In this document: piece after piece, positions 3,528 through 53,800 of the stretch
Layout of the letters: the number at the start of each line of letters is the position of its first letter
Position numbering within the stretch: position 1 is the stretch's first letter
From: Macrocystis pyrifera
Lineage: Eukaryota; Sar; Phaeophyceae; Laminariales; Laminariaceae
DNA: 64,000 nt
Direction: 5' to 3'
Assembly: GCA_031763025.1 (NCBI GenBank)
Contig: JASSKH010000009.1
Coordinates: forward strand, 6,206,512 to 6,270,511
Program-made: the position numbers and the translations under genes
Notes under the pieces: generated by a model
Told to the model about the DNA's origin: nothing
Database searches by the model: none
What the model saw: the letters and a program-made list of their open reading frames with translations, nothing else

Positions 3528-4457
3528 CTAAGGTCACGGTCGGCAAAAGGAAGACGAGGAACAGGGGGGGGGCGTACTCATTTATTGCTTGCCTTAGTCA
3601 TTTGACCATTGACCCCGCATCCCCTTCGAGACGGAGCACCGTTCCTACTCCTAATAGAGACACCTCCAACAATTGGGCGCTCCTTACGTTGTTTCCGTAT
3701 ATTACATAGAAACTTTTTGCTGATCTTGTCCCCTTCCTGTTTGGCCTCCTGTGGCCACCATCTATCTCCTAAGATAGCGATCGTTTTCTCGCTGCTATTC
3801 ATTGTATCAAACTCCTCCATGTCACATTCGTCTATTTCCCTTATCTCCTCTTTTAACACTATGTGAGTTCTACTCTCTATTGCTTTGCCACACGGGCACA
3901 TCTGTGCATCTACTTCCTCCTCCTCCCGGCTACTGGTGTACCTCTTTCTTCTTTCTGGCAGGTCCAGGTCCCCTACACGAAAGCGCAGTTTTAACGTTTT
4001 CGCGAAGTCCATTGAGCCGTGCAAATACGTTTTCATTCCTATTCCTTCCCTCAGTCCCCCGTATATCTCTCAAGTGTGGTTCCGATTCCACCTTGTTTCT
4101 TAGCGCAAGCCTTTCCCTTCTATCTATCCTTTCTTCTACTTCTGCCTTGCACCTCCCAAACTTCCCGGCGGACATCATCTCTTCTTGGGAACAGGGGGGG
4201 GAGGAACTAAGAGGAAAAGAGGTAACATTCGAATGGGGAAAATGAGGAGGAGGGGGGGAGGGGAAGGAGGAAATAGGAGAAGGAGGCATTTTTGACAAAG
4301 AAACGAGGAGAAGAAGGTATAGGAGGAAGGGGGAAAAGGAGAAGGACGAGAAAGGACGAGACTTCACGCATGCGGCTTTCGGGCAGGGCAACGCAACTGA
4401 CACGGTGTTTGGTCGAGGGATCGGGTTGGGTGTCGCTGGGATGTCGAGCATATACGG

Positions 4458-4492
<35 letters not shown>

Positions 4493-7400
4493 GCTCATTA
4501 TCATGCATGGCCGTAGTCGTATGACCACAGACCCTCGCATCCCTACAATGCCGGGATGGAGCACGTCGGGTTTTCACCGACCAGGCAGACATTGCTTGCA
4601 CCAAGCGCGAAGCGCCGGGGGAGGGGAGCGTACTCATTTGATGCTTGCCAAAGTCATTTGACCATCGACCATCGACCATCGACCACGCGTCCCTTTCGAG
4701 ACGGAGCACTGGGGGGGAAGGGAGGTTGAAAACAAGCAGGTACGGGGTGAGGGTTACTGAACGCCCTGTACCACTTAACACACCAAATCTCCAGGCGCTC
4801 GAGGAGGGAGAACTAGCGCCCGACCCACACATATCATCACAAACAATAGTGTGGCCAGTTAATTCTATCTTACGGGCTTCCTCGCTCTGGCTACGGTACC
4901 CGATAGAGGCGTCCGAAAAAATCGCTCCTGCTACCATAATGAGTCAAACTCTCGCGTGGCAACAAAGCGTGGCGGGTGGCAAAAGGCGACCCATCTTAAC
5001 CACTCGACTCGACATCCCTCCTCGCTTTCGTACGGTGACGAGGGGGAAAGAAAAAGATTTCCCCCTCGCTCCGACCGTCCCGACTCCCGTCTACGCCCAC
5101 GCACAAAAAAAAAAAAAAAAACTCACCCTCGCCAGAAGAAACAAGACATTACCCACGCCTGACAAAAGACGCCCGAAACTCACCACCGACACAGACACCA
5201 CTCTTCCAGCATGATCCCTTCAGTAAAAACAGTACAAACTATCATGTTACGAAAAATATATATATATAAACACGAGAGAGGGGTGAAAACGAGAGAAACG
5301 GAGGGGGGGGGGCGTACTCACTAGTTTGCTTGCCTTAGTCATATTACCATCGGCCACGCTTTCCGTTCGAGACGCAGCACTGTTCCTACTCCTAGTAGAG
5401 AGACCTCCTCCAACAGTCGGGTGGTAATTACGTTCTCTCCATATAGTTTCTAACTCCCATTCAAGTCAGCGCTGACTGAGCAGGCTATCAACAGCAGGCC
5501 ACGAACCCTCCTAGCCAACACTCACGTCGTCGGAGTCGCAGAAGTCCATAATCTCCGCGGTCTGCTCCACCGATTTCGGCACCCCGTCCAGGAGGCCGTA
5601 CCGCAGCACGAGGCACTCCCTCTCCGTCGCATCCAGCAGCCTCAAGAACGCGTTCGAGAGGTCCTCCCTAAGCGACACCTGAAGGAACTCTGCCCCCTGC
5701 GGGGTGGCCGTCCCGTGCTTGCCGCAGAGCCCGGAGGGCGGCGCCAGCGCGTCTACCACCACGATGGAACCTTCCCCCCTCTCGGCGCTTCCCACGCCGC
5801 CGCCCCGGGTCCGGCTGAGGCCCGTCAGGCGGTCGAGGCTCCTGACGCGCAGAGCGCTCTGCTCGAGGCAGGCCTTGACCTGCTCCACGCTGCACCCGGC
5901 TCCCGACGCCAGCTCTTCCATCGTCGGCGTGCGTCCCAGCTCGTTTTGCAGCTCGTTCCGCACGCGGTTGACCTTTTGTTCGTTTGTTTGTTGTTGTCCA
6001 TTCATGTCAGCGTTGTTGTTGTAGTGGTGATGGGTGTAGTGGTGGTGGTGGTGGTCATCGCAGATAGAGGGGACGGGAGGAACAGACGTACGGTACGCCA
6101 TTATAAGGGGACGGTCCGTGAGGGCGGTTCGCCGGTCACTATTTATCTATCGGCCGTCAAACATCAACCTGTCTTGAGACACCAAAAACAAAACCAGAAC
6201 CAAACCGAGTTTTTCCATTTTTTGGAGTTGTTACGCACTCGCTTGAACTGCTCCGATGCTAAGCGGCGCACCGATTCATTTCACAGCACGTAAAGCATCA
6301 AAACCACCAACATTATCCGCTCAACACTCTAAACACGAAGTTGCCGGGGCGACGTCATTACGAATGCCCCCCTCCCCCGCCTCCCAACCGCCTCCATCAA
6401 ACACCACTTCATTCCCGTCAAGACGACGCCCCCCTCCTTCCCTTCCTCGTCCTCACCTTCGAGATTCGGTAGGCCAGGCTGACCGGTATCCGGATCATTC
6501 TGTTCTGGTTCTGGACTCCCTCGTTGAGGTACTTCCTCACCCACCACTGCCCGTACGTCGCGAACCGGAAGCCCCTGGTGGGGTCGAACTTCTCGACGGC
6601 GCGTATGAGGCCCATCGTCGCGTCCTGCACGAGGTCTGTCTTCGTGAACTCCCCGTACTTCAAGGACCGGACGTAGCCCGCGACGATGCTATTCACCATG
6701 CCCAGGTTCAGCACCACTGTTGTGATAATTTCGTTGGGGTGAGGTGGGGTTGGGTGGGTTTGGGTTTGGGTAGGGTAGGGTAGGGTAGGGTAGGGTAGGG
6801 TAGGGTGGGGTGAGGTGCGTGGAGTTGGTGCAGTTTTTAAACCGCCTAGTGGGGAAAAATGTCCAAAGAAAGTGCCGGATACAGCAGAGCATCGGACACG
6901 GCTGTCAAGGCAGTCCGGGCCGTCTGCTGGGCCATGGCATGCCGCACATACCTCGTACCCTCCTCACACTGCAAGGAGTTGTATCATGTACGAGACACTT
7001 ACACCTGGGCCCGAAAAGTTACCATCACCATCACAATCAACGGTTTACCCTTGATCACAGCCAAATAGAACGCCCAACAGAAGAGCGGTCTAACCCGGTA
7101 TCTGCTTTCTATTACGGGGGACCATAGTATATGGAACCAAATATTGTTAGTAAAAACAGGTAAATATATAGGTGTTTGTGTGTACCGTAGGTGCTATTTA
7201 CTATGGCCCTCCGCAATAGAACGAGAGATAGCGAATCTGCAGTATCTGCCAAGTAGTTCCCCTCGCGGAGGAAAGCCGGTACAAAAACGTAGCATCTCCT
7301 GCAGGAGCTTGTGCTACTGAAGTTGCCGTCTACTACTACAAACAGTAGTGTAGGTTCGTCCTTTGTCACCTCCCAAGTCCTTCAAGGGCTTTCGAAGTAC

Positions 7401-8261: not shown

Positions 8262-9025
8262 AGATATATTTCTCTCTGAGCGTGCTCGGTTGGTACATCC
8301 CTGGCCTCTCAAGGCTCCCACTTGGACACCGCACCTTTCTATTACTTGCCGGACATTTCCAGCCGTTCTTTGTTTTCTCCATTTTTTTTGCACTTTCGCT
8401 TTTCTTTTTTTTTTCCTTTTTTCTTTTTTGGTTCCTGTGCGTGCGTGTACTCAGAGCACGGCACCGTGGGCGAGCCCGGCGCCGTCGCTGGTGTTGGCGG
8501 GTAGAGGGGGAATTGGACGGAGCGCGGTCGCCGTTTTTGTGGATAGGCATCGCGTGTTTATCGAGACACGAGGGAAGCATGAATGTGCTCTGTCTAGCCT
8601 TCTTCTGCGGAGTTGGACAGAATATGTGCGAGTCTGTAAGGGTCGTTCGGGATTGCAAAATAATATTCAAGCGGTGCTTATTTTCGCGACCGAGCTGATT
8701 TTCACATAGAGAGCATCGCAGTCTGAGCACCAACATTGTCGAGCTGGCGAACGAGGGCCACGATGAGCACCGAGCTTCACGCGAGGCGGGCGACGGGGCT
8801 CACTGTGGCAGAGAGGGAGGAAAGCTTAACCCGGACCGAATCGGTGGCGAGGTGGTCGCGAGAGGGAGGTGGTCGCGAGAGGGGCGGGCGGCGGACGAGG
8901 CCTAGCGAGAAGCTCTGCTGTTTGATTTTTTCTCCTTGACCGATGCAAGGTGTTCCAATCACGCAGAAAAAAATTACATGAGAGAGGACGGGGATTTTTT
9001 TTTCTTTCTGATTTTTTCGGCTTCA
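8262..9025. repeat. Dispersed repeat R1, copy 1
   Basis: About 750 bp sharing GAGCGTGCTCGGTTGGTAC, TACTTGCCGGAC, GTGCGTGCGTGTACTC and AAGGTGTTCCAATCA, in the same order, with 25033-25780. Translation on the minus strand gives related but broken peptides in both copies, so a decayed coding element is possible. No transposon domain is recognised. Confidence 0.75.
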
Positions 9026-9035
9026 AAAGCAGAGA

Positions 9036-10398: not shown

Positions 10399-10670
10399 TG
10401 ATTGTGCTCAGAAACACGGAGACGTTACATCTAACATTAGGGAGTTCCATATATTGATATGGGATTATAGGAGAAGGATATTTACACGAATATTCGGGGG
10501 GATAAACGGGAGGTTTATTCCCGCAACCTGGTGGATAATAACCTGCATACGATGCATGAGCTGTCACTCGACAGCTCGGATAAAATACAAGAGGAGTTCC
10601 GTGTTACTGTCTGGAGTCAACCACGCGTTCCCGTGCCAGCTGCGCCTATACCTTTAGAGATCAATCAACA
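10399..10670 (+). repeat. Left LTR of the copia element
   Basis: Starts TGATTGTGCTCAG and ends ATCAATCAACA. The boundary comes from alignment with the right copy. Confidence 0.75.
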
Positions 10671-12216
10671 CACTAGTGTAACCGGTGATCTTCTATTGGC
10701 AAGCGTAGCCAAGGCCAACCTAAAGAGGTGGGAACCTGCTTCCGGCATGCCTAGTTTCGAAGATGTGCCTAGTCAAGAAGCCAGCGTGGCAACTGAGAAG
10801 ATGATGATAGAAGAGATGAGGGAGAAGATAGAGGTCCTGGAAAGGACGATGGAGGAGCAGAGACTGCGCGCCGAGAGGGACGCGCAAGGAGCAGGAACGG
10901 AGGGGGAGGGCGGTGGGGGGGGGACGAGAGGAGAAGGAGTTGCCAGACAACAAGCAACGTCGACTGTGCCGGCACCTGGGCTGGAGGCCCAATCAGGCAT
11001 GTCATTACCTTTTTTTTCACCGCCCAAGCTTATCCCAGTCGAGACCCCCGAAGTTCGATAATATAGAGGCCCACTTTAGCACGTGGAGTAGCAAGTTTTT
11101 GACATACCTACATCGCTTGGGTGCCGGCATGTACTTAGTAACACAGCGAACCCAGTTATGGTAGGCGACATGAAGGTGTCGCCGGAGGAACTAGCCTCCA
11201 GACATTCCCCCCAGGAGATTAGGGACGCGAGATTGGTGTATGGATTGATGATGGAGGCAATGACGGGATACGATATGGCTGAACTTAGGATGCAGAAGGC
11301 AATGTCTCCGAGTGGTGCTTAGAAAGAGTAGGAGGACTACTACATGCCAAAGACTATACCTGCAACACATAGGTTGAGGAGAGAGTTTGATACCACCCGG
11401 ATGGCTGAGGACGAGAACCCCTTGCTGTGTCTAGGAAGGGTGGACAAGGCAGCAGATGAGCTGGCGATGTTGGGATGTGGTAAGAGCGCAGAGGAAGTGA
11501 ACCGTCACATAGTTACCAACCTCTCGTCTTTGTACACTATACAAAGCAAGTCAATTCTTTCCCGCCCTTCCATCCCCCGTTCCGAGATCGATGAGTTCAT
11601 CCATGACGCGTATGCAAACGACAAGGTAGAGAAGGAGATGGTTTCTAGGGCGTTGGGCGTGCAGGGAGTGGTAGATCAGTATGCCTTGTACGCCGGAGGT
11701 GCGCAGCCTGCCGGTGGTGGAGGTGCGGGTCCAGGAGGGGGAAGGAGGAACAGGAGAGGCGGGAGGTTCAAGGATGAGCAGCAGCAGCAGCAGCGGCAGT
11801 ATCAGCAGCAGCAGCAGCAGCAGCAGCAGCTCCAGCTCCAGCGACAGTATCAGCAGCAGCAGCCACAACAGCAGCATCAACGGCAGCAGCAGCAGCCCCA
11901 GCAACAGCACCGTCCCCATCAGCAACGTGGCAACCGGGGAGGAGCTTCGTCGGGGGGGATAACCGGCCCCAAATGGCGTTGGGATGCCGTGGCCTGCAGG
12001 TACCGTTGGCATGACTCAGGCCCAGACCCCTTCGGTACGGGTGGAGTAGTCTCCTCCATGGGTTGGGTACCTACTGACCCACCACCAGGGACGTTGCCGC
12101 CGATGCCCCCGCCGCCCGTAGCGACTCCGGCAGGCTGGGGTCCCCCACCGAACAACACGCCATGGAGGCGCAAGGGACTCTGCTTCCGGTGCGGCAGACT
12201 GGGCCACCACGTCTAG
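10531..12216 (+). pseudogene. copia gag (broken)
   Basis: Three frames are needed. The first (10531-11061) has a coiled-coil-like EEMREKIEVLERTMEEQRLR. The second (to 11164) has FDNIEAHFSTWSSKFLTYL, the copia gag core. The third (11344-12216) continues with a gag helix region, a glycine-rich part, a glutamine-rich tract at about 11780-11920 and a zinc knuckle CFRCGRLGHH. A TAG falls inside the knuckle, before its last cysteine; the frame then continues into protease. Confidence 0.75.
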
Positions 12217-12240
12217 GAATGCCAGGTAGCTCCCGCGCAA

Positions 12241-12960
12241 ATGAACGTCGCTATCCCGGGTGCTGCTGCTCCTCAACCCGCCCAACAGATGTACTACGGA
12301 GGTGGCTGGCTGCAGGAGACGCCCTACGGCAGTGGTGGGTATACCTCGGCCGGAGCTTCCCCGCCACAACAACCCTCCTTGAGCACTTCCTCTTCCCCTG
12401 GCCCATCGAACAACGGCAACCCTACGCCTACGTTCGATCCGCACCTCCTCACCGCGCAGTTTGCGCACCAAGGCAAGGCGACTGATATTTTTTTTGGGGT
12501 TAATGGGAGAGAAGAGTGGGTTGCGGATTCGGGAGCAACCTTTCATGTGACTGATAACCCTTTTGGTATGGTAGACTGTACTCCCCCTCCCCCTGGTAAG
12601 AGCAGTTTGGTGGTCGGTGGTATGAGGTCACTGAAGATAGAGTACTTCGGCCAGATTCCAATCGTGATGCACAGCTCTCAGGGTGACGTAAAAGTTAGGC
12701 CGATGGACGTAGCATACGTACCCGGTGTTCGCTTCAACCTAGTTTCGCTTCATGCAGTAATGTTGAAATGGCTGGTGATACTTGATGCTCAGGGAGCTCA
12801 CACGTTGAATGGGCAGTTGTCCTTCGTGCGTAGGGACGCGGGTTCATACGTAGACGCCACGCGGATTGTAGAGACCCCGATTGCTGCCGTTGTTTTGGCT
12901 CCTGGAAAAATGAGGAGCATTGATATTAACGACCTTCACGTAACGACCTTCACGTTGCCC
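12241..12960 (+). pseudogene. copia aspartic protease region
   Basis: Contains EEWVADSGATFHVTD, the DSGA active-site motif of copia proteases, and VAYVPGVRFNLVSLHAVM, the usual segment before the integrase. The frame is shared with the last gag segment. A frameshift occurs after about 12930. Confidence 0.85.
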
Positions 12961-13900
12961 TTGCCCACTCCCATGCTGACACTCTCCGTGAGACGGCACG
13001 CCAGATGGGCATTAAGGTTTTTGGGTAGTGCGTTCCGTGTGCTGGGTGTTCTGAGGCGAAAGGGAGGAGGATGGCGGTGCCGTGGACGACCGAGTGCCGT
13101 TCTACCAGGCCTCTGGAGCGTCTGTTCGTGGATCTGTCGGGACAACAGCCTACGTCTGCTGGCGGTGCGCAGTACTTGATGATGATCGTCGACGACTACT
13201 CGTGACTGGCGTGGCCGTATTTCTTGAAGCGGAAGTCCGACGTCCCGAAGGTCTTCGCTGGTTTTCTGGCCGACATCAACGCAAAGGGTGTGCCGTCCAT
13301 CGTGGAGTGCCTTCGCTCGGACAACGGCACCGAGTTCACCAAGGCGGAGTTCGTGGAGTTGCTCAACCATCACGGCATCCGCCGCGAGCACACGCCCATC
13401 GATTCTCCGAAGCATGACGGGGTGGTCGAGCGACGGATCGCCATGACGCTGGAGCTTGCAATAGCGTCCCGCCTGGAGGCCACCCGCCTGTTCGGCGATG
13501 CAAGGATGCCGGCGACGCAGCCCCTCTGGGCTGAGTCATGCGTGTACGCGAGCGATGTGATCAACATGACGGCGACGGTAAGGACAAGCCGGAAATGCAC
13601 TCGCCGTACCGTAAATTCTACGGAAGACCGCCGTTTGCGCGGTTGCTCCCGTTTCTGAAGCCGGGCTTCCACCACGTCTGGAGGGCCCTGAAGACCGAGC
13701 CGAAGTCGCAGGCTTGCTTCTACCTCAACGGCGGCAACCACCATGCAGCTGACTGCAGCAAGATCCTGCTGGTGTCCGGCCGGATGTCGTTCTCCCGTGA
13801 CGTCACTTGGGAACACCCGAGGAAACCGTTTGTGGGGTTACTGCCTTGGGAGGAGGAGAGCTCCCCGCCGCCGCCGTCGTCGTCGCCACCGCCGCCGGGT
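12930..13900 (+). pseudogene. copia integrase (broken)
   Basis: After frame changes the catalytic-core landmarks can be followed: RLFVDLSG (first Asp), IVECLRSDNGTEFTKAEF (second Asp), and PKHDGVVERRIAM (Glu). A TGA interrupts the VDDYS stretch near 13203. The C-terminal part (13600-13850) has the usual SPYRKFYGRPP and GRMSFSRDVTW, then a proline-rich spacer. Confidence 0.8.
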
Positions 13901-14479
13901 GCGCCGGAGCCTCTGAGGGGCCCCGACGTATGGCCCGAGCCACCGTCCCCATCTCCACTGCTGCCGCCGCAACCGTCGTCATCACCGCCGCTACCGCCGC
14001 CGCCACCGCCGTCGCCGTCGCCGTCGCCGTCGCTGCCGCCGCCATCGTCACCGCCGCCGCCGTTGCCGCCGCAGCAGTCACCGCAGCCATAGCTTTCGCA
14101 GCGTGTTGCCCGGGTACTGGGTTCTTATATCCCGGACCCGGAGGATGGCGATGTGCTGAGGGGACGGACAAGGGGGGAGACTGCACGACACCAGGAGAGC
14201 GGTGGCGCTGTGCAGAGAGGGCGGACGAGGGGGGAGACCGCACGACACCAGGAGGATGGTGGCGGTGTGCAGGGTGATCGGGCCAGCGGGGAAGCTGGGC
14301 GACACCCGGAAGATGGAGATGTGCTGAGGGAGCGGACAAGAGGGGAGACTGCGCGGAACCGCGAGGCTATGGGGCACGGGCTGCTGTCGTTGATGGCAGC
14401 GCGGGAAGTAGGCCATGTACTTTTCCATCAAGACCCACCGCGCAAGAACCCTCCCCTTCCCACACGCCCGTCGAGCGAG

Positions 14480-15175
14480 CTTTCGACGCCGAACTCGTAT
14501 GCTGAAGCGTGTGCGGACGAGTATTCGGCCATCTGGAGGCAGGCGATGGACAAGGAATACCATGGGCTGGCGGACGCGGGGTTTTGGAGCGACGTAGTAA
14601 CCAGAGGGGCTCAACGTCATCTCGGCGAAGTGGGTGTTCGCCTGGAACTCCAACGAGCATGGTGATGTGGTGCGGGCGAAAGCAAGGCTGGTGGCACAAG
14701 GTTTCAAGCAGCGTGAGGGTATTGATTTCTTTGAGACTTTTGCTCTGACGCCTGCAGCGTCTTGTTTTCGTTTGTTGGGTGCTATTGCGTGCGAGTTGGG
14801 TTTGAATTTGTGTCACTTTGATGCTGAGCAGGCGTTCGTGCAGTCGAGTTTGGATGAGGATGTATTCATGCGACTACCCCCTGGCTGCGGCGAAATGTCT
14901 GGTAAGGTAGCCAGGTTGAATCGCAGTCTCTACGGCTTGAAGCAAGCGTCGAGGTCGTGGCAACCACCTTCTCACTCACATGCAAGAGTCTAGGATTTGA
15001 GCAGAGCCCCGCTGATGCGTGTGTCGTGGGGTTGGTCGAGTCGGGCTCTGTCTCCAATGTAACAGTATCATGTGGATGAAATTTTTGCTGTAGGACTTAA
15101 GGCTAGGTGCGATCAGTTCTGTGAAGACCTGAACAACCTTGTTCCGATCAACAATCTGGACGAGTAGCGGTGGTA
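14480..15175 (+). pseudogene. copia reverse transcriptase (broken)
   Basis: Recognisable pieces are AMDKEYHGLADAGFW, VRAKARLVAQGFKQREGIDF, FDAEQAFVQSSLDEDVFMRL and LNRSLYGLKQASRSW. The catalytic YVDD position reads HVDE near 15068, so the active site is lost. Several frameshifts separate the pieces. Confidence 0.85.
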
Positions 15176-15191
15176 TGCTGGTTGTTGTTTT

Positions 15192-16007
15192 TTGAGGGAT
15201 TGGGATGCTGGTACTTTAACGATTTCGCAGCAGGCGTTCGCTGAAAATACCGCGGCGAGGTTTGGTGGTAGTTCTGGGAGGAATAACCCGCTTTCGACTG
15301 GTGTGAAGCTTGAGGAGTTTGACGAGAATGAGCCCGTGGGTGATACGCCTTTCCGCGAGTTGGTGGGGTGCTTGATGTGGCTTGCGAACCAAGCACGACC
15401 GGATATTGCGAACGCGGTGAGGGCGATAGCTAGGTACACGAATAGGCCGAGGGGAGTACACTGGAGGACAGCAGTCGGTATTTTAGAGTATGTATTTTCT
15501 ACGAGTGATTTCGGCATTACGTTTCAGAAGGGTAGCGGGCTTGAGCTGGTGGCGTTTGCAGATGCAGACTATGCCAACAAAGCCACTGACAGGAGGTCAG
15601 TTCCGGTGGGGCTATCATGTGTGCTGGGGCGTGTGTGCTGGTTTTCTAGGACGCAGAAATGCGTCACACTCTCAACCACTGAGGCCGAATACGTAGCACT
15701 GGCAGACACTATCAAGGAGGCAATGTTCATGCGCTATGAATGGAGTTTTATTTTTCCGGGGTTTGGGGAGAGATGCACTACGGTTTTCGAGGATAACGAG
15801 GGGGCAAGGCACCTGGCACCAAATCCAGTGTGTACGTCGAATTCGAAGCACATCGACGTACGACACCACTTTTTGCGGGGGCTTATTTTTAAGGGGGAGT
15901 TTGTTATTGCCCATGTAGAGTCGGAGGAACAGCATGCAGACTTCTTGACAAAGCCGCTCAACAACACGGTGTTGCGTTACCACCGGGTTTTTCTGATGAA
16001 TATTTGA
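15192..16007 (+). pseudogene. copia RT connection and RNase H domain
   Basis: One open frame with FRELVGCLMWLANQARPDIA, ELVAFADADYANKATDRRS, VTLSTTEAEYVAL and VEDN-like VFEDNEGARHL, ending HADFLTKPLNN, the standard copia RNase H landmarks. This domain is intact by eye although the element upstream is broken. Confidence 0.9.
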
Positions 16008-17466: not shown

Positions 17467-17469
17467 TAA

Positions 17470-31860: not shown

Positions 31861-31864
31861 ATAT

Positions 31865-35850: not shown

Positions 35851-35900
35851 GAAGGGGGGGGGGGGGCATCCTCTCCCCCCGACTTACGTACAACAAAACA

Positions 35901-39000: not shown

Positions 39001-40704
39001 AAATTGGCCAATACGTCGAATAATTCGACACTACTAAATAGAAGTGTTTGCATGATCGTATCAACAAGGGGAAGACACCTGTGACGCTTATTTGGTTCTG
39101 CGAAACATGCAAGGCTGTTATATTTAACGGCTGCCAAAGTGCTAGAAAAAAAAAAAGTATTGAACTTTTCGAGCTTGTCAACAACCCTGGGGATAAAAGA
39201 AAGGGTACTATCGACGAGAATAACTTTTGCACTTTGGTTTTTGAGATATGAAAACTGAAGTTTGGCATGGTGGTGCGTCATGACAAGACAAAAAAACTGG
39301 CCACTGGTCTTCTTTTTTTTTTCGTGGCCAGTTTTTTCCTCTTGTCATGACGCACAACCATGCCAAAATTTCGTTTTCCAACTCTGAAAAACCAACGTGC
39401 AAAAGTGTAAAGGCTGTCGCTGGAACCAGCTCGTACCCGGTATATATACCATGGTATATATTAACACAGTAGTGTGGAGCTACTTCGTGTGGCCGATGTA
39501 AAAAAAAATCATCTAGTTTTATATTTATTTTCCTTCCGAATACCAAAATAAACACGTGAACCCCCAGAGGGGTTACAGTACAACACGGGTGATAACACTA
39601 TCATACGGGTGATAACACTATCACACGTGTGATAAGATCGCGCACAAGTCGGACGAATTCCCAAGCTGGTTTTCTCGACAGCGTGGAAAATTGAAAAAAA
39701 AAAAAAAAAAAAAAAAAAAAAACGCTTGAGCGAAGCGCCTGTTAAGAATTTGCCTATTAATAGCAAGAACTTCAGGCCGAGTTAATATAAAGTTCAAATA
39801 ATTTAGAGCTACTGCTGTAGGCATTTTTTGTGCTCAGCAAGGACGCCACTCTTTACCCTATACAATATTGTCCTTAAGAGCCTGTGCTCAACGTTGACAT
39901 CACAATAAGCCACGAGTCTTGGCCACACTATTACGGGGGACCATAGTAAATGGGACCAAATATTGTTATTAGTAAAAATAGGGAAATATGTAGGTTTTTG
40001 TGTGTACCATAGGTCCTATTTACTATGGTCCTCCGTACTAGAAGATTCTTAAACGCTGTCGATTACTGTACGCGTATTTCCATGTATCGGGGATACCGAT
40101 TCGGTTTATGGTATTAAAAATAAAATAAAAATGAAACCTTAAAATGTTTGACGATTTTTAGCAAGAATGTATCGTGTACATGGGGAGGCCGACGAGATCA
40201 AACGCTTCCAACGCCACGCCTTTCACTGTGAATGCATGCATGCATGCATGCATGCATGCATGTCTCCTTCGCTTCAGAGCCAAAACGCCTCCGAACACAC
40301 CACCCCATCGGGTGTGCTATCGTGCGCGCTACGCACGGCATGTGCAAATAGCAAAAAATCACCTGTGAGGAATTGCTCGATGACCTTGTCCGACTCTGCA
40401 TCGTTCGCGTCCGCCGACACGGCTGCCTCGGTGTTGTCCTCCAAAGCCATCGCATCCATCCCCTCCCCTCCTGGCCGATGTTGCGCCTGCCATACATAAC
40501 CCGGAAAGAGCAATGCCACGGTATATAGAGGGGTGGTGCCGTGTCGGGGTGGCGCCTTACTGGGGCGGTGCCTTCACGTGAGGGCCACAGCTTTTCGAGC
40601 AAACCGATCAACATTTTTTTTTATGCGCTACAGCAGTACAGTAGTAGTCCTAACAAACGTACAGCACTACAAAAAAGTGTCATATTAAGCGGCATGCTAC
40701 TGCG

Positions 40705-40750
<46 letters not shown>

Positions 40751-40979
40751 TAGTAAATAGGACCTACGGTACACGCAAAAACATAATATATTTAATTATT
40801 TTTACTACTGTAACAATATTTGGTCCTATTTACTATGCCCCCCCCCCCGTAATAATAGTTGCTCACTTGAGAGCTCAACCGGTCAGCAAATATTGCTTCA
40901 GAAGACAACAAAAAAAAAAAAGTGCCACCCCTACCGCGGGATGAGCCGAAACAAAAACAGGGTGGATACCACTCTGCGT

Positions 40980-41065
<86 letters not shown>

Positions 41066-42142
41066 ACGTATTTGTTGATTGCCTTAGTCAGTTGACCATT
41101 GCCCACGCATCCCTTTCGAGACGCAGCATTCCGGGGGGGGGGGGGAGGGGGTATTCATGCCATGCATGGCCGTAGTCGTACGACCATAGACCCTCGCACC
41201 CCTATTATATACAATGCCGGGACAGAGCAAGTCGCGTCTCCACCGACCAGGCAGACAAAACACTGCAAATACCAAGCGTGAAGCGCCGTGAGGTGCTCGG
41301 CGAGCCGCATGAAGGGTGAGCCGCACCCTCCTGGGAACCGCTTTAGAGGCGGACTTTCTTGCGTCTGGATGACCGCGTCGAATTATTACTCGGAGGGGGG
41401 GGGCCGGGGGGGTTGACCGAGGACATTTAATACAGACCCCATCTAACACAGCAGGGCTCTCCTGGAGATGAGGAGGCATGGGTGCGTTTCAGCGCCCGCC
41501 CCGCCTGCACCCAGGAGGGCGAACAAAGGTGCACACCCACGATAGCCCTTATGTTGTTAGACATTTTTTGCCCGCGGGGACTACGGGTGCACATTTTTTT
41601 TTTTTAATATCTCAACGCACCTACACCTAGCGCTGAGATGTTCAACGCCCCCGGGAAACATCTCCAATAGTACCGTGTCTACGTAGGCACCCTTATCCCT
41701 CTCCCGGCACGCAAGAACAACCTGCTCAACCTCTCAAGAACCGCGCCCACGTGTGTTGGAAACCGACGACTTGGGCTCAGCGCGGGTAAGTTTTTCGCAG
41801 TAACTTAAAAGTAATACAGCAGTGCTTCCAAGCTGAGTGTTCTCCCAAACCAACGCTCAGATGGGTAGGGTAGGGTGACTCGTGTACTGAGTCAAGCTGG
41901 GGAGGCTATCGAGAGGTTTTAGCGGGTTCAACTCCTACACTACCCGCGTCGGGAGAGATAAAAATCTAGACTCCCTCAGGCGCCTACATCCTCGGAGTAA
42001 ACCACAGCAGTTACTTTGATGGCGGCACGGTAAGAGGCAGGCCCGACTAAGGTGGAAGAAACGAACCGGGTTCGAACCGGTACACGAAAACTTGAGAAAT
42101 AAGTGTGGACAGGGGTTTCCTCTCGCTCTCCGGGGAGTTAAA

Positions 42143-42182: not shown

Positions 42183-42562
42183 GTCCTCCCAAAACGGGGT
42201 GCAGTGTTAAGCAAGCACCAAGGGTAAGGTGCTTGTGCCGGGCGCGGGTGCGACTTAGCTGCCGCTGCACACGCCCAAAAATTGAAACTATTACGGGGAG
42301 CCATAGCAATTAGGACCTAGCTAGGGTACAGACAAAAGCCAATATGTTTCCCTATTTGTACTACTACGGGGGGGCCATAGTAAACAGGACCAAATATTGT
42401 TAGTAAAAAAATAGGCAAATGTATGGGTTTTTATGTATACCATAGGTCCTATTAACTATGGACCCCGTAATATTGATAACAACGTCGACGACGACGACGG
42501 CGCATCAAGAACAATACCTCGTACAAACGAATATCATGCTGTATGCAGGTAAAAGTCAGGTC

Positions 42563-42638: not shown

Positions 42639-44534
42639 TGCTCCGTCTCGAAAGGGATGCGTGGTCAATGGTCAAATGACTAAGGCAAGCAACAAATGAG
42701 TCCCCCCCCCCCCTCCCCCTCCCCCCCCCCCCCCCACCCCCCCCCCTCTCTCTCTCTCTCTCTGCTTTATCCCCGACCCCCTCTAACCCTCACTTGATCT
42801 TGAATAAGGCGGTACACAGGTCCGGGGCTCTCGGATATCACCCCCCCTCTAAACCTCACTGGTTGACCCAGAGCATCATCTTCTTCTGCACAACTCCGGG
42901 GGGAAGGTCCACCTCCTTCGCCAGGTCGCCCAAGCGCCAAGTCTTCACCCACAAAACAAAGCGAGGCAGGAGCGCACCGCGTGGGAGTCTAAGTTGGCGG
43001 AGTTCAAAACTGAAAAAAAAAAAAAAAAAAAAGAAAAAGTGAAAAATTGAAGAAATGAAACGTATCGAAAAAATGAAAAATTGAAGGGTTGAAAAGTTGA
43101 TCACAAACATGAAAAAAAAAAATGGAAGTTGAAAGTTGAACAATTGAAAATTTGAAAACTGAAAACTTGAACAAAAAAAAACCAGCAAAAATGTTGAAAC
43201 GAAGGGGCTGAGCGTTCCCTCCGAAGGCATTTCTTTGTATGAAGACACCCTCGGAGGCGTTTTTGTTTGCCACGTATTCGAGATAATTGTCGAGCGTGCT
43301 GAAACCTTCTTAGAACTTGAGAGAGAGGGGGGGGAAATGACGAAAGTAAACGTCGATGACAGCGCCGCCCACGCGGAGCGACCGGGCTACTCTCGGGATC
43401 GAGGTTGGCAAAAAATTGCGTCCGTACTACTGTTACCGCATGCAGTGGCTTGTTTGGAACATGACGCTTCTCGTACGTACGGCTGCGCGCTTCCACCATT
43501 CAACAGTTAGTCGATTAATACCTGGTACCACACAGGCCACATCTTGGCGCCACAGCGGTATAATACCGGTCCCAAAGGGGGCAGAAGTTCGAGGGAATTA
43601 TTTTTGGTCAAGGCCTTCGGAGGTTTTTGTTTGCCTTTCAAGGAACTTGCAGGCGTCTGTCTGTCTTGTGTTCCAGGGCCTTCGCAGGTCTTTTGTGCGC
43701 GGAGGCCTCGAAAGGCGTGTGCTGCTGCTGCTGCTGCAAGGCCTCCGATTCGAAAAGGTATGTCTTATTGGCCAAGGCTTTCGAAGGTTTTTATTTTGCC
43801 TTTCGAGGAACTTGCAGGCGTCTGTTCGTGTTTCAAGGCCTTCGAAGGTATTTTGTGCGCGGAGGGCTTAAGAGGCGTGCGCTGCTGCTGCGAGGCCTCC
43901 GATTCGAAAAGGTGTCTTACGCCTCAAGACCCCCGAAAGGCGCTGGTTTCAAAGCTCTCGGAAGGCGTCTCTCCGTCGAGGCCTTCGGACACGTTCGTAT
44001 TTCGAGACCTCCGAAACGCGTCTCTTTCTCAAGGTATTCGAAGGCATTCCTTTCAAGGCCGGGGTTCGGGGATCGTGAGCTGAGACATACCATTTGATGG
44101 GCTATCGTTAACGCGGACGCAACCACCCTAGGCATTTTCTGTTCAAGCGTGGAATCAAAATATACAAGAAAAAAAAAAAAAACACAACCAAAACGAAATC
44201 TGACAAAAATGCAGAGCTTACCCCAGAAGCTGCAGGCAGCCACACGCGCACCCCGCAGGGAACGCGGGGTTGTGCACGCGCCCACTCGACGAGCCAGCGG
44301 TCGAAAAAAAAAAAACGAAGAAAGAAGATGGGCTGCAAGCGTCAATCCCCCCTTGAAGACTGCACCCGCGTTTCTTCGGGCATTACATACACACGTACGC
44401 TCCGGCGTGCAAACTGCTTGGGGGGATTTTTTTTAGTATAATTAAGTTCGCAGCTGTGCCAGGGGCTACACGAGAAAAAAAAAAACAGACACCCCACCAA
44501 TCCATTTTCGAGACCAAAGACAGGGGGAGAGGGT

Positions 44535-44565
<31 letters not shown>

Positions 44566-46561
44566 GGCGGCGGGTGGTACAAAAACGAAGGTTACAAAAA
44601 GTTTGGATTTTTTCGTAAATTCGTCGAGAAAATCTCTCACCCCACTTTTTTTTTTGTTTTTGCTCATTGCGCCCTTTTTAGGAGGAGTATGGTGCCGCTT
44701 CTCTTTCTTTCTCTTTTTGTTGTCGTGAACCGGTCGTTAAGCCCTTCCGGCACTAGGGTTTATCAACCCCGAAACATCGAGCAGAGCGGTGGTAGCAGCA
44801 GCCCCCGCTCAGGAAGAGTGGGCAGGCAGCAGCACGGGCCCGGACCGCCATGCTAGGGTGCGTACCTGCTGCGATCGTGTCTGACGGTAGAGGCTGGCTG
44901 CTTTCTTTCATTGGACTCCTCGTGGCTCAATCAATACCTCACCGCACGAAAACATGCCTTATGACTCTAGAGCTTTTTTTCTTCTTTCGGAGACAACCCG
45001 GGCAACGCCGACCGACAGCAGCCATATGCGCTTGTCCCAAAACTGAACAGGCCACGCTATGCTATGCCATGCCATGGTACGCCGTGGTACGCCATGCGAT
45101 GCCATGCTATGCCATGCTATGCTACGCTTGTAAACCTATCCTAAAATATATACCGGTAGTGTGCTCACTTGGCGACCTCAACAGGTCGGGAAAAATTAAC
45201 CCAAAAAAGTGGAAACATACCCCTGCCGCCGGCCGAGAGATTGCTCGCTCCTAAAAAAAACTTCCTTCTTTTAGAACTGGTTCAGTTTTGGGGTCGAACC
45301 ACTCTAATTCTAAGTAGTTTTTTCCCCGAAACGGGACTGTAGTTCTAATTTTTTTTTTTTTTTTCAGTTTGGACCCCCTCCCTCCCCGCGCTGTTATACC
45401 CCAGCATCCCGATCGGGCTGCTGCTTGGCATGGCTGGCCGTCGAAGCAATCGTCGTTTGTTTTGAAATCTTACACCGGAAAAATATACACCGGTACCTTA
45501 GTTCACCGGAAACATGTATACCGGTACCTCAATTCAAGCGGTTTCTCGGCAGGGTGCAGCTCACTCACCCTTCATGCGGCTCGTCGAACACCTCACGTTT
45601 CGCTTCGCGCTCGGTGCGAGCAAATGTCTGCCTGGTCGACGAAACACCCGACGTGCTTCCACCCGGCAGAGTAGGCATGCGACGGTCTATGGTCATTACG
45701 ACTACGGTCATGCATAATATCGACTACACCCCCCCCCCCCCCCCCCCCCCCAGCCCCCCTCTGTGAAGCCTCACAGGGGTCAATTGACCCTTGTACTCCT
45801 GCCAAAAAACAAAATCCACTCAAATTCCGAGTAGCTGTTCTCCCCTTGTCCCCCCCCAAAACGTGTACATACCAGGTATGCAGCAGCTATAGCTCTACAA
45901 CGGTGTGAGACGTTTTTTTTTTAATAAACAAAAAGAAAAACTCATCATTAGCCATGAATCACCTCAAGCTTGCCCTCGAAGTGCATGATGAGCGTCGCGT
46001 GGAGCGGCGAGACAGAAAACGCCCTCTCCACGTTCCCGAACTCCAGGGTGAGCTGCACCACACCCAGCTGTTCCAACGAGGAGAAATCGCGGTGACAAAA
46101 AAAAAAATAGCCAATATTCCAGACGTTCACATCGGGGAGGCGGCAGGGGGGGGGGGGGGGGGGGCGCGTGGGAGCAGGGGAGCGCGGGGATAAGAGACCA
46201 GTCTACTACTAGAGTCAGCACGTTTCGCGATGACGCTTAAGGTCGGAGTACATTAATGACTCCAAACACGCCAACTTGCAACTATCACACCCGGGCAAAT
46301 TCGTAGGGGGGGGGGGGGGGGTTACTTATTGTTATGCATGGCCGTAGTTGTACATATGACCATAGTCCCTCGCATTCCTGCATTGACCGGACTGAGCACA
46401 TCGGTTTTTTACCGATCAGGCAGACACTTGCTTGCACCAAAGCGCGAAGCGCCGTGAGGTGTTCGGCGAGCCCCATGAAAGGTGAGCCGCATCCTACTAA
46501 AAACCGCCTGGGACGCGGACTTTCTTGCATACGGGTGACAGCGTCCAATGACGGGAGTTAA

Positions 46562-46597
<36 letters not shown>

Positions 46598-49500
46598 GTG
46601 TTCACTATAGGGGGGAAAAAAGCGGTAACACTTGGGGGGCGCTGCAACGCACACGTACACGTACGCAGGTGAGGCAAACCAGCAGGTAAAAGCCCACAGT
46701 ACTGTGACCACTTTTCCCTCTGGAGCGTCTTCCCCATGGCCCAACGTAGAGTGCTTGCTGCGACGCCTGGCGGTGAACAAACAAATGCGACGATTGCTGG
46801 GTACACTTCAAGCACATCCGCAGCGCAAAAACACACCTGCCTAACGAACGGTGCGTCACTCACTCGCATTTCTACGTACCGCGGTCGACTAAGAGGCAAC
46901 GCGAAGAGTCACGCACGCACCCACGAGCGTTCACGCGACCCCCGACGGCCCACTCAACCATCCCCCCTCACCCCCCCCCGCTCCGTCTCGAAAGGGATGC
47001 GCGGTCAAAGTAAGGCAAGCGAATAAATACCCCCGCCGCGCGCGCCCAACTCCCGACCCACACAACCCTTTCCCCCCCCCCCCCCCATACCCCCCCCAAC
47101 ATATATAATATATATTATATATGGGTTGGGTTGGCGTCAGTTGGCAACGACACTGTAAAACATGCCGCTCACTACGTGAGCTAGACATCCAGGGTACCGT
47201 TTTTGTTTTTGTTTTTGTTTTTGTTTTTGGCGGTCGCCCACAGCTGGTCGTCTAGTTAGATCATTTGTGCGAAGTAAGTAATCTTTACTCTGCACAAGGG
47301 AATTGATCGTATCGCGTAGTGTTCAAGGTAAGGCACCCAAGAGGCAGTTACATAGTTCTCCCATTGCTGTCTCTGGAATTGGCCACACCGGAAATTAAAC
47401 TAACTCATTGAAGCTGTCATCCACATGCAAGTCCGCCTCACAAGCGGTTCATAGTAGGATGCAGCTCACCCTTTATGTGACTCGCCGGACACCTCACGGC
47501 GCTTCGCGCTTGGTGCAAGCAATGTCTGCCTGGTCGGTGAAAACCCGACATGCTCCGTCCCGGCATTGTAGGGATGCGAGGGTCTATGGTCATACGACTA
47601 CGGCCATGCATGAGATCGAGTACATCTCTCCTATCGAGTACACCCCCCGCCGCCGCCGCCGCCGCCCCATAAAAGCGTCACGTGCGCGTGTGGCGATCGC
47701 GCGCGAATAACCCACCTGCTTCTTCCAGACAAGAAGTCGAGGGTTTTTGATGACGGAGTAGGCTTTGCTGAACTCCGCCAGCTTCTCTTGCATGGAGGGG
47801 TGCAGCCGCATGTCTTCCCCGAGAAGGTGAGGCCAGAAGTGCTGGCTCACCATGACGGCATCCAGGCATCTGAGTTTCATTCGACACACATCACGATGGT
47901 GGGAGGGGGGAGGGCATCGCGGGAAGGGAGGGTACGGAGGAAGATAACGGCGGAGGGGCAGGAGGAGCAGGACGAGGAGGAGGACAAGAAACACCAAGAG
48001 GAGGAGGGAGAGGGGGAGGACGAATAAGGGGGGGGGACAGGAGGAAGAGGAGGAGGAAGAGAGGAGGAGAAGAGGGAGATCTTCGGAGTGCTACGTCATG
48101 GATGCACCACATCACCTATTTTTCAGACCGGCAACTATCCAACACCCTTGCCAGAGAAAACAACTCACTGGGATTCCTCCTTCGTCGCCGTCGTCCCTTG
48201 CGACCCCTGAAGCTGCGACAGCCGGTCGTGCACATTCGTATTCACCCGCTTCGACTCCTCCACATCGCGGACCTGTTCCGTCGCGCCATTCGTACGAGGT
48301 TGGGGGAGGGGTGGGGGGCGGGGGCGGCGGGGGGGGGGCGCAAGCGCGCGGTCAGCGTTCAGCCTTTCACTCATCAGCTCGAGCTCTCGAGACCCGCGAT
48401 AAGTCAGCCGCGGCCATCACATGAAACAGTAGTTGGAACTTGCCCGCCCGACAAAACAGCAACAAACCGGCGGCGAAGCGACTCCGAAACACAACAGTGA
48501 AACGCGAAGAATCGTGAAGCAAAAAGTCAAAGTGAAAACCGAAGCTTGGGGCCAGCAGGGCGGGACGAACGAAACATAAAGAAATGTTGGCCCTAAAGAA
48601 ACCACTCACGGCGATCGACCGCACCATAAAAAAACTAAGCTTCCGTCGACAACTCTACCTTTTGGCCTCCGCACTTAGCCTCCATGCCCCCCTCCTACCC
48701 CCATCCCTCTCCTCCCCGCCCTCCTCCCATCCCTTCCCTCTCTCCCACCCAGCCCCAACACCTCACGGCGCATCGCGCTAGGTGCAAGCGAAAACCTGCA
48801 TGGTCGGTGAAAACCCGACGTGCTCCACCCCGGCATTGTATACGTCGTATATATATATATATATACACAGGGATGCGAGGGTCTATGGCCATGCGACTAC
48901 GGCCATGCATGGCATGAGTACACCCCTACTCGCGCGCTTGCCCCCCTTCTCCCATCCTTTTCCCTCCCTCCATCCTCCCATCCCTCCCCCCCCCCCAGCA
49001 TCCACTACCAACAGCTATGAGCACTCAGACCGTGAACATGGTCCCCGTTCTATGTTCCTATCAGACTTTCAAAACGGTGACTACATTCACGGCATGGACG
49101 GCCAGGGGGACACGTTCACCATCTTCAAGCGGCCTGGCCTCACCATGATGTCACAGTGGTGCATGCTAGACTCTCCGAAGCGCAGCTTGAGCAGCTCGAG
49201 GTTCTGTATCTCCCTGGCAGTGTCGTAGGCCAGGTTGTTCACCAGCTTGTCGGCAAGCATCAGGCGGTACTCCGTCACGAACAGCTCCTGTCTCCCCGGC
49301 GCGGTTGGATGCGTTACGTTACGTTAAGTTTCGTTTCGTAGTGACGGTTACAGACGGCGACAGACGGTTACAGGGAGGGAAAACCTTGGGAGGCGCGTTT
49401 GTTGCTCCCTTGCGTTGTTGGCTAGACTGGGCATTTACAGGGGTGTGCGTCTTGACGCCTACTTTTTCCTCGCATTTTTTTTTTGTTTTTTCGTTTTTAC

Positions 49501-50791
49501 AAAAAGGAGAAGGGAAAGGGAAGACACCCACACACACACCTCCGTTGTATGTACGAGTTGAGCTGGAACCTAAAACTGATGAACGAAAAATACAACACAA
49601 TAATAAAAAATTCCGGTGCAAAATAAAAACGATATTCTGGCACCACGACTAACAACCTTTGCGTGTTGCGTTTTATGGGGTGCGTGTGTTATCCCGTGCC
49701 ACAAAAAAGCTACACTCCCTGTTAGCACTACTACACATGTACGAAGCGGGTTGTATTAAGGGAGCACACGAAAAATAGGACGCCCAGTCCCAATGGGGAC
49801 CGCACGGCATTGTTTGTTGTTTTGGCAGAAAAAAACAGATCCAAACGACTTTTGAAACTGTGCCCAGACACGTCACGCTGATGCTATTAACTACGATCTC
49901 TTTCGAAACGGCTGAAACGATCGACCGATCGACCGACCGGCCATCAAAGCTAAAAAACGGAAGTCAGACTCACTCAGTGCCCGATCCAGCCTGCCTTCGC
50001 TACCAAACACCTGGCAACCTACGACCAAGACCCCAACCGTAACGGCAACCACACGAAACCGATCCCCGAACATATCCAAGTTGAATACAATCGACCGATT
50101 CGAACCGAAGCGAACCGCACCGCACCGCACCGAACCGAACCGAACCGAACCGAACCGAACCGAAACCGAACCGAAACCGAACCGAACCGAACCAAACCGA
50201 GCCGAACCGAGCCGAACCGAACCGAACCGAATGGATCTGAACCAAACCGCACCGAACGGAACAGGACCGAACCAGAGCGAATAGAGCACAATTCAGTGAA
50301 ACGGAATTACTGCACCTTGCTTCCGTAGATGGACACGAGCATGCTCAAGATGTCGCCTCCTCCCCTGCTCCCACTAGCTGGGTCGGCGTCGCGAGAGGCC
50401 GGTTCCCAATTGGGAGCCACGGGGCTACCGTCGTCCTCGTCACTCACATCGTCTCGGTCCAGCGGTCGCGCATCCTGCATGATTGTGAATGAAGGAGGGA
50501 AGGAGGGGGGGAGGGTGGCAGGGGGGAGGGGGGGGGGGGGGGGGGGGGGGGGGAGGGACACATCAATAACAAGCTGAATTCAAAACAGCAAACAAAACAA
50601 ACAAGTCAACCTTGTCGTGCGAAGTACAACGCATATGTTGCAATTTCACTCACTCTACAGCAGTACAACGTTACCCGTACGCGCAAAGCGAGAGCGTCAA
50701 GGGAGAGCGGGAGCAAGCAGCACCTGAAAGGGTCGTGCGATGGAGGGAGGGCGTCCACGATAGTCAAGCAGCCGGAAAGATGAGGGCAGAA

Positions 50792-50832
<41 letters not shown>

Positions 50833-53800
50833 ACACAGGCACAGCCCTGGTCGGTGACGCTGGAAAAAAACGCTCTCGGCGGTCTGTGCCGGCTATCACA
50901 CTGCTGTTAGTCACCTCAACACCGAGCAAAAGCTTGCGTGCGAGCGCGTGAGCCGGCGATCTCAGTAGAGCGGACAAAACACGTGTACCACTCTGGACGG
51001 AAATATAAGGAGCATTTATATATAAAATATGAATATTAAACGTTTCTTATATTTACGTCCATTGTGGCATATTTTATTTTTCGGTTTCGTTTTAATACGG
51101 AGGACCACAGCAGTGAATAGGACCTACGGTACACACAAAAAACCTATATATTTTTAGTGACAATATTTGGTCCTAATTTACTATGGTCCCCCGTAATTGT
51201 TGAATTTCTCTACTTTTTGTCCAGCCCAAAGGTACCCAAGTTTCGCGGTAACGTACCAGGCACAGAACACGACAGCACTCCCAAAAAACAAGCGAGTTGA
51301 ATAAACTATTGGCTCGGCGTCTGCGTGCAACACACCAAAAGTTAGCGTAGGTCACACCATGCCTCACATGACAACAACCTAATTCGCTCGGTCCAAAACA
51401 AGAGCATATCATGTTCGATAGTTTTTTTTTCTTCTTCAACTTTTTACCATCCCGCGGGAACATGGTAATCAGAACCAAAAATTTCGGCGCGCAAACATGG
51501 GGAGATACATGCTGTTCGGTCCCATCGTGGGTTCTGCATACCATGCGCCCCCCCCCCCCCCCCTCCCCCCCCCCCCCGTAACACTGCAAGTATCATTCCA
51601 CACGAATTCCAAGCAATCTCCCAAAAAAAAACAGAAAAAGTGTTCCAAGGAAAAGAAGAAGAAGAAGAAGGAAAAAAACGTGGGTGCGGTTCTAAAAAAG
51701 GGTCTTATAATGTTAACCCTCTTCGGGACTCCAGAGGAAAAAATTGGCGACGAAAAAAAAAATTACCCGTTACAGCGACGACGGCCACGGCATGGAATGG
51801 GTGATGAAACAAATTGGTGTCTTGACCCTTTTACGACTGCAGTTTCCGCCGTAAAGTGTTTTCTGTGACTGACGGGGGGGTACCTTAACCCAAAATCGTC
51901 GGAATGATGCCAATCTTGTTTCGAAAAAACGACGTTTTTGCATGCTTGGGCTGTACGGGGTTTTTCATCGGGATGAGATTTGATTTTTTCGGCTGAAGTC
52001 AGTTTTCGGGTGAGGTATGGAGCTCCTTAAGGTCAAGTGAGGAGCCTCAGAAAGTATAGGGTGAAACTCTATCGTAGAACGCCTCAGTCCCGTTTGGGGG
52101 ACAAACCAGTCAAACTATAAGTATTACGGGGGTCCATAGTTAATGGGATCAAATTTTGTTAGTAAGAATACGCAAATATATAGATTTTTATGTATACCAT
52201 AGGTCCTATTAACTATGGACCCCCGTAATAGTTTGTCCCCAAAACTGATCTAGAGAGACTGGAAGGGTTAAGCTACCATGCGACGAGTCGTGCAGCACCG
52301 GTGCAGCAGGACCCTAGCGGTGCCTGTGGACCCTCACGCGCTGCTTTCAGATGGTTGACAACACTTGAAGCTAGTTTTTTTTTATAGTCCCGGAAAGGGG
52401 TCAGGAGGTGTCGTAAGTTATGCGCATTATCACTGCCTTGATCAATGCACGTCCCTGGTATTATTTAATACGCTCTTCTCAACAAGGGTGCACTGACAAA
52501 TAGTTGGAACTACGAAAAAAAAAAAAACTCAAACGTTAACCTGTCGCACACGCAGGCAGGCAGACGTACAGGAACAAACCACGAGCAACAAAAAAAAAAA
52601 AAAACGTCGCAGACCAGAGTAGACAAACGGTCGAAGCAGACAAAAAAAAAAAAAAAAAAACAGTCAAGACAAACACATACATGCGCAACCGGAGAAAAAA
52701 AAAGGCAGCATGTACAGGCAGCAAACAAAGCAAGACAACGTGAGCAAGCAGCTTGCCCAAACAGGCAACGACAACAGACACCCGAAGCAGGCAGCCTGAG
52801 CAGAATAGCTCGCCAGGCAGCCGAAACAGACCAGCGAAACCGACAGGCTAAAAACAGACAATCGAACCGACCAAAACGTGCAGAAGATAAGCGTGCAACT
52901 CGCCTGCCTCCTGAGCTCGTCGTAGAGCTCGCCACTGGTTTCGTCGGTGAGAGAGGCGACGATGCACCTCACCGTGTCCTTACGGCCCTGCAGATACAGC
53001 CGGACAGGCCCGGCCACGGTTTCCAGTAGCACATCCTGCGATGAGATGAACGGAGGGAGAGAGGGGGGGAGGGAGGGGGGGGAGGGAGGGGGGAGGGAGG
53101 GGGGGGGGGGTCTCATTATCATGCATGGCCGTAGTCGTATGACCATAGACCCTCGCATCCCTACAATGCCGGGACGGAGAACGTGGGGTTTTCACCGACC
53201 AGGCAGACATTGCTTGCACCAAGCGCGAAGCGCCGTGATGTGTTGGGCGAGTCGCATGAAGGGTGAGCTAGCTGCATCTGGCGGAATTTCTTGCACGTGG
53301 GTGACAGCGTCGAATGAATTGACTTCTTTTCCGGTGTGGCCACTTCCAGAGACAGCAATTGGGGCAGTATGCAACTGCCTCGTGGGTGCCTTACCATAAA
53401 CACTACGTGATAAGATCATTCCCCTTGTGCGGAGTAAAGGTTCTCCACCCCTCACAAACGACATACCTCGATCGCCAGCTGTGACCGACTAGAGGGGGGT
53501 CGGAAACAAAAACTATCTCAAGGCATACGATCACGAACCGTCCATCGGGCATCGCCTACCTTGGGGTCGAGGATGCGGAGGACCTTAATAGTGGCGATGT
53601 AGACGTCGATGATCTGGTGGGTATTGGCCCCCGGGTGTAGCAAACGCTTCCTTACGCTCTCGCGCAACAGCACGGCCAGCCGCTGGTGCTGCTGGGTCAC
53701 CCCGAGGGCTGTCTGAAAGAAGGTGTTTTGCGGGGGTATTGGGCGGGGATGGGGAGGGAGAGAGGGAGGGTACGGTAGCGCCGAAATCCGTTTGCTTTCT

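Follow-up and report, generated by a model that had tools for sequence, protein, structure and literature searches.

A LINE and a non-coding partner family of about 400 nt, alike at their 3′ ends and followed by C-runs, lie in C-tracts more often than chance

Does the C-run behind the copies of a LINE belong to the element or to the site into which it inserted? The window, by which we mean the whole 64-kb stretch of DNA analysed, holds 17 copies of two families, ten of a non-coding SINE-like family of about 400 nt and seven LINE 3′ ends. The two families have a common 3′ end, a sense-strand C-run follows most copies and precedes about half of them, and some copies are stacked head to tail. Systems with a short 3′ UTR, non-A repeat tails and a SINE that carries a LINE end are a known kind among RTE and RTE-X elements, as passages of PMC2887409 and PMC3747384 describe; the new point is a preference for existing C-tracts, which is well above chance in this window and rests on 17 copies. 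On balance we favour, by a modest degree of confidence, the proposal that an RTE/RTE-X-like LINE and its partner of about 400 nt insert preferentially into existing C-tracts, with a G-ended nick as primer.

The ten SINE-like and seven LINE places listed in a preliminary description of this DNA were all recovered. A blastn search with one copy per family as query returned the same 17 places as nhmmer, whose profiles were built from the copies they recover, so that their E-values are partly circular; the weakest blastn matches are 35826–35781 (E 1.4e-5) and 46980–47028 (E 1.5e-6). The non-coding family exists as described, and its length, put there at about 420 bp, measures about 400 nt. Most copies are truncated at the 5′ end, and SINE-like copies of full length stand at three places, 47231–47648 on the plus strand (profile match 47231–47624) and 36540–36134 and 53490–53111 on the minus strand. 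Each of the three has a long predicted 5′-proximal hairpin (47265–47297, plus; 36470–36503 and 53424–53458, minus), the letters of which differ among the three copies (z −1.2, −2.3 and −2.2, respectively, for stretches of about 110 nt). Just upstream of the copy at 47231, a stretch of about 75 bp (47147–47221) is 83% similar to 37386–37460, which sits near a C11 run at 37480.

The LINE is represented in the window by 3′ parts, and no full-length LINE was found there. The longest copy (3573–4193, minus strand) contains an open frame of 163 aa (3581–4069), and its stop codon TGA (3580–3578) is followed by GTACG and then by C9 (3572–3564), in agreement with the frame end at 3578 and the C-run behind it that had been described. 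Only 5 nt separate the stop codon from the C-run, so that in the LINE most of the common end is coding sequence. In blastn and in profile cross-matches the two families are alike over their last 65–75 nt or so only, which bears out the common end of about 70 bp noted before and, with it, the arrangement of a SINE that uses the end of a partner LINE.

Behind the 3′ ends, a sense-strand C-run of at least seven lies within 15 nt of the boundary in 12 of the 17 copies, against 1.75% of window positions (p=5e-18 in a binomial test which, like those given below, treats the 17 copies as independent although they all come from a single 64-kb window and several are neighbours); C-runs are thus far from equally frequent at random sites. 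A G-run is found in this position in none of the 17 copies, and an A-run in the 15 nt behind the 3′ end likewise in none. Besides C9 in the longest copy, the LINE ends carry C10 (5312–5303, behind 5313–5447, minus strand), C19 (17407–17389, behind the short end 17407–17469, minus), C84 (41064–40981, behind the short end 41064–41129, minus) and C12 (42702–42713, behind the short end 42639–42701, plus). Of the SINE-like copies, the full-length ones at 36540 and 53490 are followed by C19 (36131–36113) and by C12 (53110–53099) with a further C/T-rich tract, and the weakest copy (35781–35852, minus) by C20 (35780–35761). The 5′-truncated copies contribute C33 (4491–4459, behind 4492–4617, minus), CCCCCT C13 (run 41145–41133, behind 41152–41387, minus), C23 (45729–45751, behind 45533–45728, plus) and C16 (46321–46306, behind 46323–46561, minus).

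The homopolymer C of the preliminary description therefore stands as a run of at least seven for these 12 copies; in the other five the C behind the 3′ end is shorter, interrupted or later (four to six C's or a broken run), and other sequence begins after a few C's. The full-length copy at 47231 has a duplicated terminus and then C6 (47643–47648) followed by G, and the 5′-truncated SINE-like copy at 17133–17381 (minus strand; profile match to 17158) has a doubled terminus, ATCGAGTACA...ATCGAGTACA, followed by C6 G C14, in which C14 is 17132–17119; in both, the C's come after the duplication. The 5′-truncated SINE-like copy at 48754–48919 (plus) ends GTACACCCCTACT, with C4 only, the short LINE end at 4629–4711 (minus), which consists of the unit of about 65 nt with a local triplication, is followed by CTCCCCTCCCCC, and the short LINE end at 46980–47028 (plus), which has an internal deletion, ends AAATACCCCCG, with C5. 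The letters right before the C-run vary (for example, GTACG, GTACA, GTA, GCA, GT and GA). Directly behind the runs no common sequence was found except in the stacks and in two sister copies, by a flank blastn that reported matches of less than 100% identity only. Copies 47231 and 17381 have CCCCCCGCC in common after GTACA, and part of the C tail therefore seems to be RNA-borne.

What argues that the C-tract is a target as well as a tail? In 9 of the 17 copies a C-run of at least seven also precedes the 5′ boundary, at a distance of no more than 15 nt (p=3e-12 against the window); a G-run does so in none. When the stacked copies are left out, the upstream C-run is present in 7 of 14, against a background of 4.2% for the same strand nearby (p=6e-7); in 20-nt bins over the 300 nt upstream, 7 of the 14 have one in the last bin, and 0–3 of the 14 in the other fourteen bins. 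By both counts the copies lie in C-tracts more often than chance. One of the seven non-stacked runs precedes the longest LINE copy; the others are C7 before 4711, C13 (35866–35854) before 35852, C9 before 41387, C71 (42565–42635) before 42639, C35 (46596–46562) before 46561 and C9 (46971–46979) before 46980. All seven belong to the 11 non-stacked truncated copies, and the profile search shows no copy directly in front of any of these runs. Strand biases of 12:0 behind and 9:0 in front, together with the probabilities against the window background, speak against mere C-rich sequence or homopolymers collapsed or stuttered in assembly. We consider this explanation very improbable, although C/G runs abound in the window and the lengths given here for runs that reach 84 C may be wrong, such runs being difficult to assemble.

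Three pairs of copies are stacked head to tail. SINE-like copy 4617 lies directly behind LINE end 4711–4629, LINE end 41129 directly behind the C13 tail of SINE-like copy 41387, and SINE-like copy 17381 directly behind the tail (C19 AA C7) of LINE end 17469; the compositions are LINE+SINE, SINE+LINE and LINE+SINE, with a single orientation within each stack. The stacks and the upstream C-runs together tell as much about the target as about the tail. The C-run could instead be a tail only, which the RNA brings along or the reverse transcriptase adds; insertion would then occur at unrelated sites, and the upstream runs and stacks would arise by template jumping, in which the enzyme at the end of one RNA continues on the C tail of another and sometimes stops inside it. 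Three stacks are what template jumping would lead one to expect, and it explains them equally well; the seven isolated upstream runs are less easily explained, since with no copy in front the enzyme would have to have stopped inside a C tail each time.

The copies that have no upstream C-run of at least seven, eight of the 17, count against insertion into C-tracts and in favour of the tail-only explanation, as six of these eight have a C-run behind. They include all three full-length copies, of which one has C6: an upstream C-run is absent at 36540 and at 47231, and CCCCCCTCT stands just upstream of 53490. Upstream C-runs are likewise absent at the LINE ends 5447 and 17469 and at the SINE-like copy 45533, and the sequence upstream of 48754 is C-rich with no run of seven. 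The CCCCCCGCC common to two copies also suits a tail borne by RNA. Moreover, passages of PMC2887409 describe RTE insertion as not sequence-specific and argue that the RTE repeats, which lie between the target duplications, are made by insertion.

The longest LINE copy, however, speaks for a target. The same 14 nt, CCCCCCCCTGTTCC, lie on both sides of it, at 4201–4188 and at 3571–3558, and include the letters TGTTCC, outside the C-run, behind both C-runs. The C-run there thus looks, from the flanking letters, like part of a duplicated target, and if TGTTCC at 4193–4188 is duplicated target, the element would start at 4187. This counts against a tail alone, yet only six letters lie outside the C-run, and coincidence is possible, as none of the other copies extends far enough upstream to tell TGTTCC from sequence of the LINE itself. 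Among the 17 copies no second convincing target duplication was found, and target-site duplications do not emerge as a general feature: with the 14-nt case set apart, common flanking words show no excess (sum 73, mean 71.4; 437 of 1000 shuffles of re-paired flanks reach the observed sum) in a test that needed at least three non-C letters and to which nearly all-C duplications are invisible. Nor did a blastn of the flanks, which returned matches of less than 100% identity only and would lose an exact match, find a paralogous empty site in the window. Taking the two sides together, we regard the tail-only explanation as unlikely, yet as the strongest of the competitors to insertion into C-tracts.

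It is also conceivable that the elements end in a few C's, that the long runs grew later by replication slippage and that the upstream runs are chance or likewise grown. The window contains 44 C/G runs of at least ten, of which 17 are near a copy (on its sense strand, at most 40 nt behind or 16 nt in front) and 27 are away from one, as slippage would allow. Similarly, C-tail length shows no relation to divergence (Spearman 0.05, p=0.84, n=17). A short inverted-repeat (MITE-like) element with ends TACGGGGGTCCATAGT served as a slippage control; its ten copies lie at 40749–40837, 7123–7205, 22500–22589, 34156–34238, 38044–38124, 39942–40027, 42376–42460, 51112–51185, 52135–52217 and 56249–56331. 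Eighteen of its 20 ends have 2–7 C/G, and the remaining two, both of the copy at 40749, carry G41 and C11. Slippage growth of C-runs thus seems to occur in this genome. Only 3 of the 20 control ends reach seven, though, compared with 12 of the 17 element ends that reach at least seven, and growth does not explain runs at the 5′ boundaries, where C-runs precede nine copies and G-runs none. Slippage can explain the length of the runs and not their placement at 5′ boundaries, and as a full account it is improbable.

With 27 of the 44 long runs away from any copy, free C-tracts exist, and these runs may be empty targets or the tails of decayed elements. Long C/G runs in which no copy was recognised lie, for example, at 50528–50553, 50797–50831, 46146–46164, 44549–44567, 56423–56440 and 51548–51577, and two of the 27 flank the inverted-repeat copy at 40749. 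When C-runs of at least nine were compared by the 250 nt that precede them, with the low-complexity filter on and with the first match per pair only, no other C-tailed family emerged; the comparison returned pairs of known copies and the self-overlap 61222/61236, and missed the two runs on either side of one inverted-repeat element.

How might insertion into C-tracts proceed? We propose that the reverse transcriptase of the LINE would recognise the 3′ module of about 65–75 nt that is common to the LINE and its partner, the latter being a non-autonomous element of about 400 nt and a SINE in the broad sense. The LINE RNA would end 5 nt past the stop codon with a short C stretch, and target-primed reverse transcription would take place preferentially at existing C-tracts, where a nick in the G strand would leave a 3′ end of G's to which the C's that end the RNA could pair. 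Copying would then pass through the shared module and into the body for a variable distance, the product would be joined to the C-tract in front, and slippage, during priming or later, may lengthen the C-run. Each copy would leave a C-tract that is a target for the next, and in this proposal the stacks follow from that. Whether the system as a whole seeds itself in this way, with insertion into poly(C) tracts through pairing of C end and G nick and with insertions that make or lengthen tracts and stack head to tail, is a more tentative matter, to which we give slightly less than even weight. If it does, homopolymer C would serve this non-LTR element as both target and tail. Should insertion into C-tracts hold genome-wide, the tail and the target of a LINE would consist of one and the same single-letter repeat. 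The contribution of RNA-to-primer pairing to target-primed reverse transcription could then be tested directly, and the elements could account for some of the C/G homopolymer runs in a genome.

The starts of five of the seven LINE copies fall within a span of six model positions (553–558), with a chance of 2e-4 for six copies drawn from model positions 500–600 only, and this cluster coincides with the point at which the similarity between LINE and SINE begins; the truncated SINE-like starts cluster more weakly (three of seven within nine positions, chance 0.05). The cluster reflects either a discrete unit of about 65 nt that moves by itself or a strong stop of the enzyme. A conserved RNA fold of the shared end was considered as evidence and set aside: the LINE and SINE end composites fold alike, closing on GTGCTC/GAGTAC at the start point, with z of only −2.0 to 0.04; RNAalifold predicted no pairs on a gappy alignment of the 17 sequences of the shared end; and the predicted closing pairs are broken, by eye, in several copies.

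To which clade does the LINE belong? The LINE fragment, of which only the last 163 aa are in open frame, has no Pfam match at E 10 and no PDB match at E 1. It does have the very short 3′ UTR of RTE-type elements (TGA, GTACG, C9), if the frame is, as it appears, that of the reverse transcriptase, and a simple-repeat tail other than poly(A), as a C-run of at least seven in 12 of the 17 copies. Given that a short 3′ UTR, repeat tails and a partner element occur in RTE/RTE-X systems, comparison of these traits makes RTE-X membership likely. As for the partner, the SINE trait of a 3′ end in common with a LINE is present (profile cross-matches, blastn). No RNA polymerase III promoter (tRNA, 5S or 7SL head) was found in the family: ARAGORN, which reports whole genes and would miss a worn box A/B, gave no tRNA gene in the window, and Rfam gave no match at gathering in the window and one chance-level match (E 1.4) within 47200–47690. 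Searches of outside collections found no relatives: the ends of SINE and LINE, as exact patterns, gave none in viral and prokaryote contigs, the LINE protein gave none among six pattern stretches in viral contigs and 32 in genome contigs, and nothing came from a SINE copy (DNA) against phages or from the LINE protein against plasmids. As these collections hold viruses and prokaryotes, little follows from such negatives for an element of eukaryotes.

The closest parallel is RTEX-N1_Ec32 of Ectocarpus, a family of about 600 bp that has its 3′ end in common with RTE-X LINEs and is the commonest single family there; in the account of PMC12477816 its 5′ origin is unknown and the authors regard it as a possible SINE. 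Like that element beside RTEX-1 and RTEX-2_Ec32, the family described here is abundant, non-autonomous and a few hundred bp long, with the 3′ end of a LINE that is probably of the RTE-X type; it is shorter, at about 400 against about 600 bp, in a comparison of descriptions only (PMC12477816). A word search of the main text of PMC12477816 returned no mention of a C tail or a C-tract target for RTEX-N1_Ec32. Likewise, the RTE elements of Lepidoptera combine an extremely short 3′ UTR with a simple-repeat tail and many 3′-partial copies, made up of the end of the RT frame and the repeat, but their units are often di- or trinucleotides and their insertion is described as not sequence-specific (passages of PMC2887409). 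In the tobacco TS SINE and its RTE LINE, about 100 nt of 3′ end and the same terminal repeat are held in common, as here; there the tail is (TTG)n, whereas the present family differs also in that no Pol III promoter was found (passages of PMC3747384).

The preliminary description had called the C tail unusual and a sign of an odd priming or tailing step. The unit is indeed unusual: green-algal RTEX tails in Table 3 of PMC3747384 are (CA)n, (CAA)n, (CCAT)n, (ACAATG)n and (CTTGTAA)n, with (C)n not among them, and a literature search at the level of titles and the opening lines of abstracts found no C-tailed LINE or (C)n tail. Tails of simple repeats other than poly(A) are, however, usual in RTE/RTE-X elements (PMC3747384), so that (C)n seems to add one more unit to a familiar type of tail and does not by itself prove an odd tailing step. 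Insertion at simple repeats that were already there also has precedents, Dong in (TAA)n and TRAS in telomere repeats, both as cited in PMC2887409; unlike in these, the proposed target is a mononucleotide tract, which the element's own tail would also make.

Finally, we note several features of the surroundings. The window has a GC content of 0.533, and we read it as a eukaryotic nuclear fragment from its sigma-70 frames, a copia-like region and the inverted-repeat element. At 5514–6963 (minus strand), two separated frames contain sigma-70 regions 2 and 3, which score above the Pfam cut-off, and region 4, which scores below; they may be parts of an intron-containing nuclear gene for a plastid sigma factor. 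The region at 10471–16007 (plus) is, by eye, a copia-like retroelement, with an integrase core match at 13206–13655 (E 3.4e-5) below the curated cut-off. Long frames at 26293–31885 (minus) belong to what we take to be a CRE-type LINE, with reverse transcriptase and restriction-like endonuclease motifs recognised by eye; they gave no Pfam reverse-transcriptase match at E 10, and the roughly 700 nt behind the frame contain no C-run. A repeat of about 380 bp is present in two copies, 8487–8866 and 25265–25634, which are 79% and 92% alike in the two parts of the repeat.
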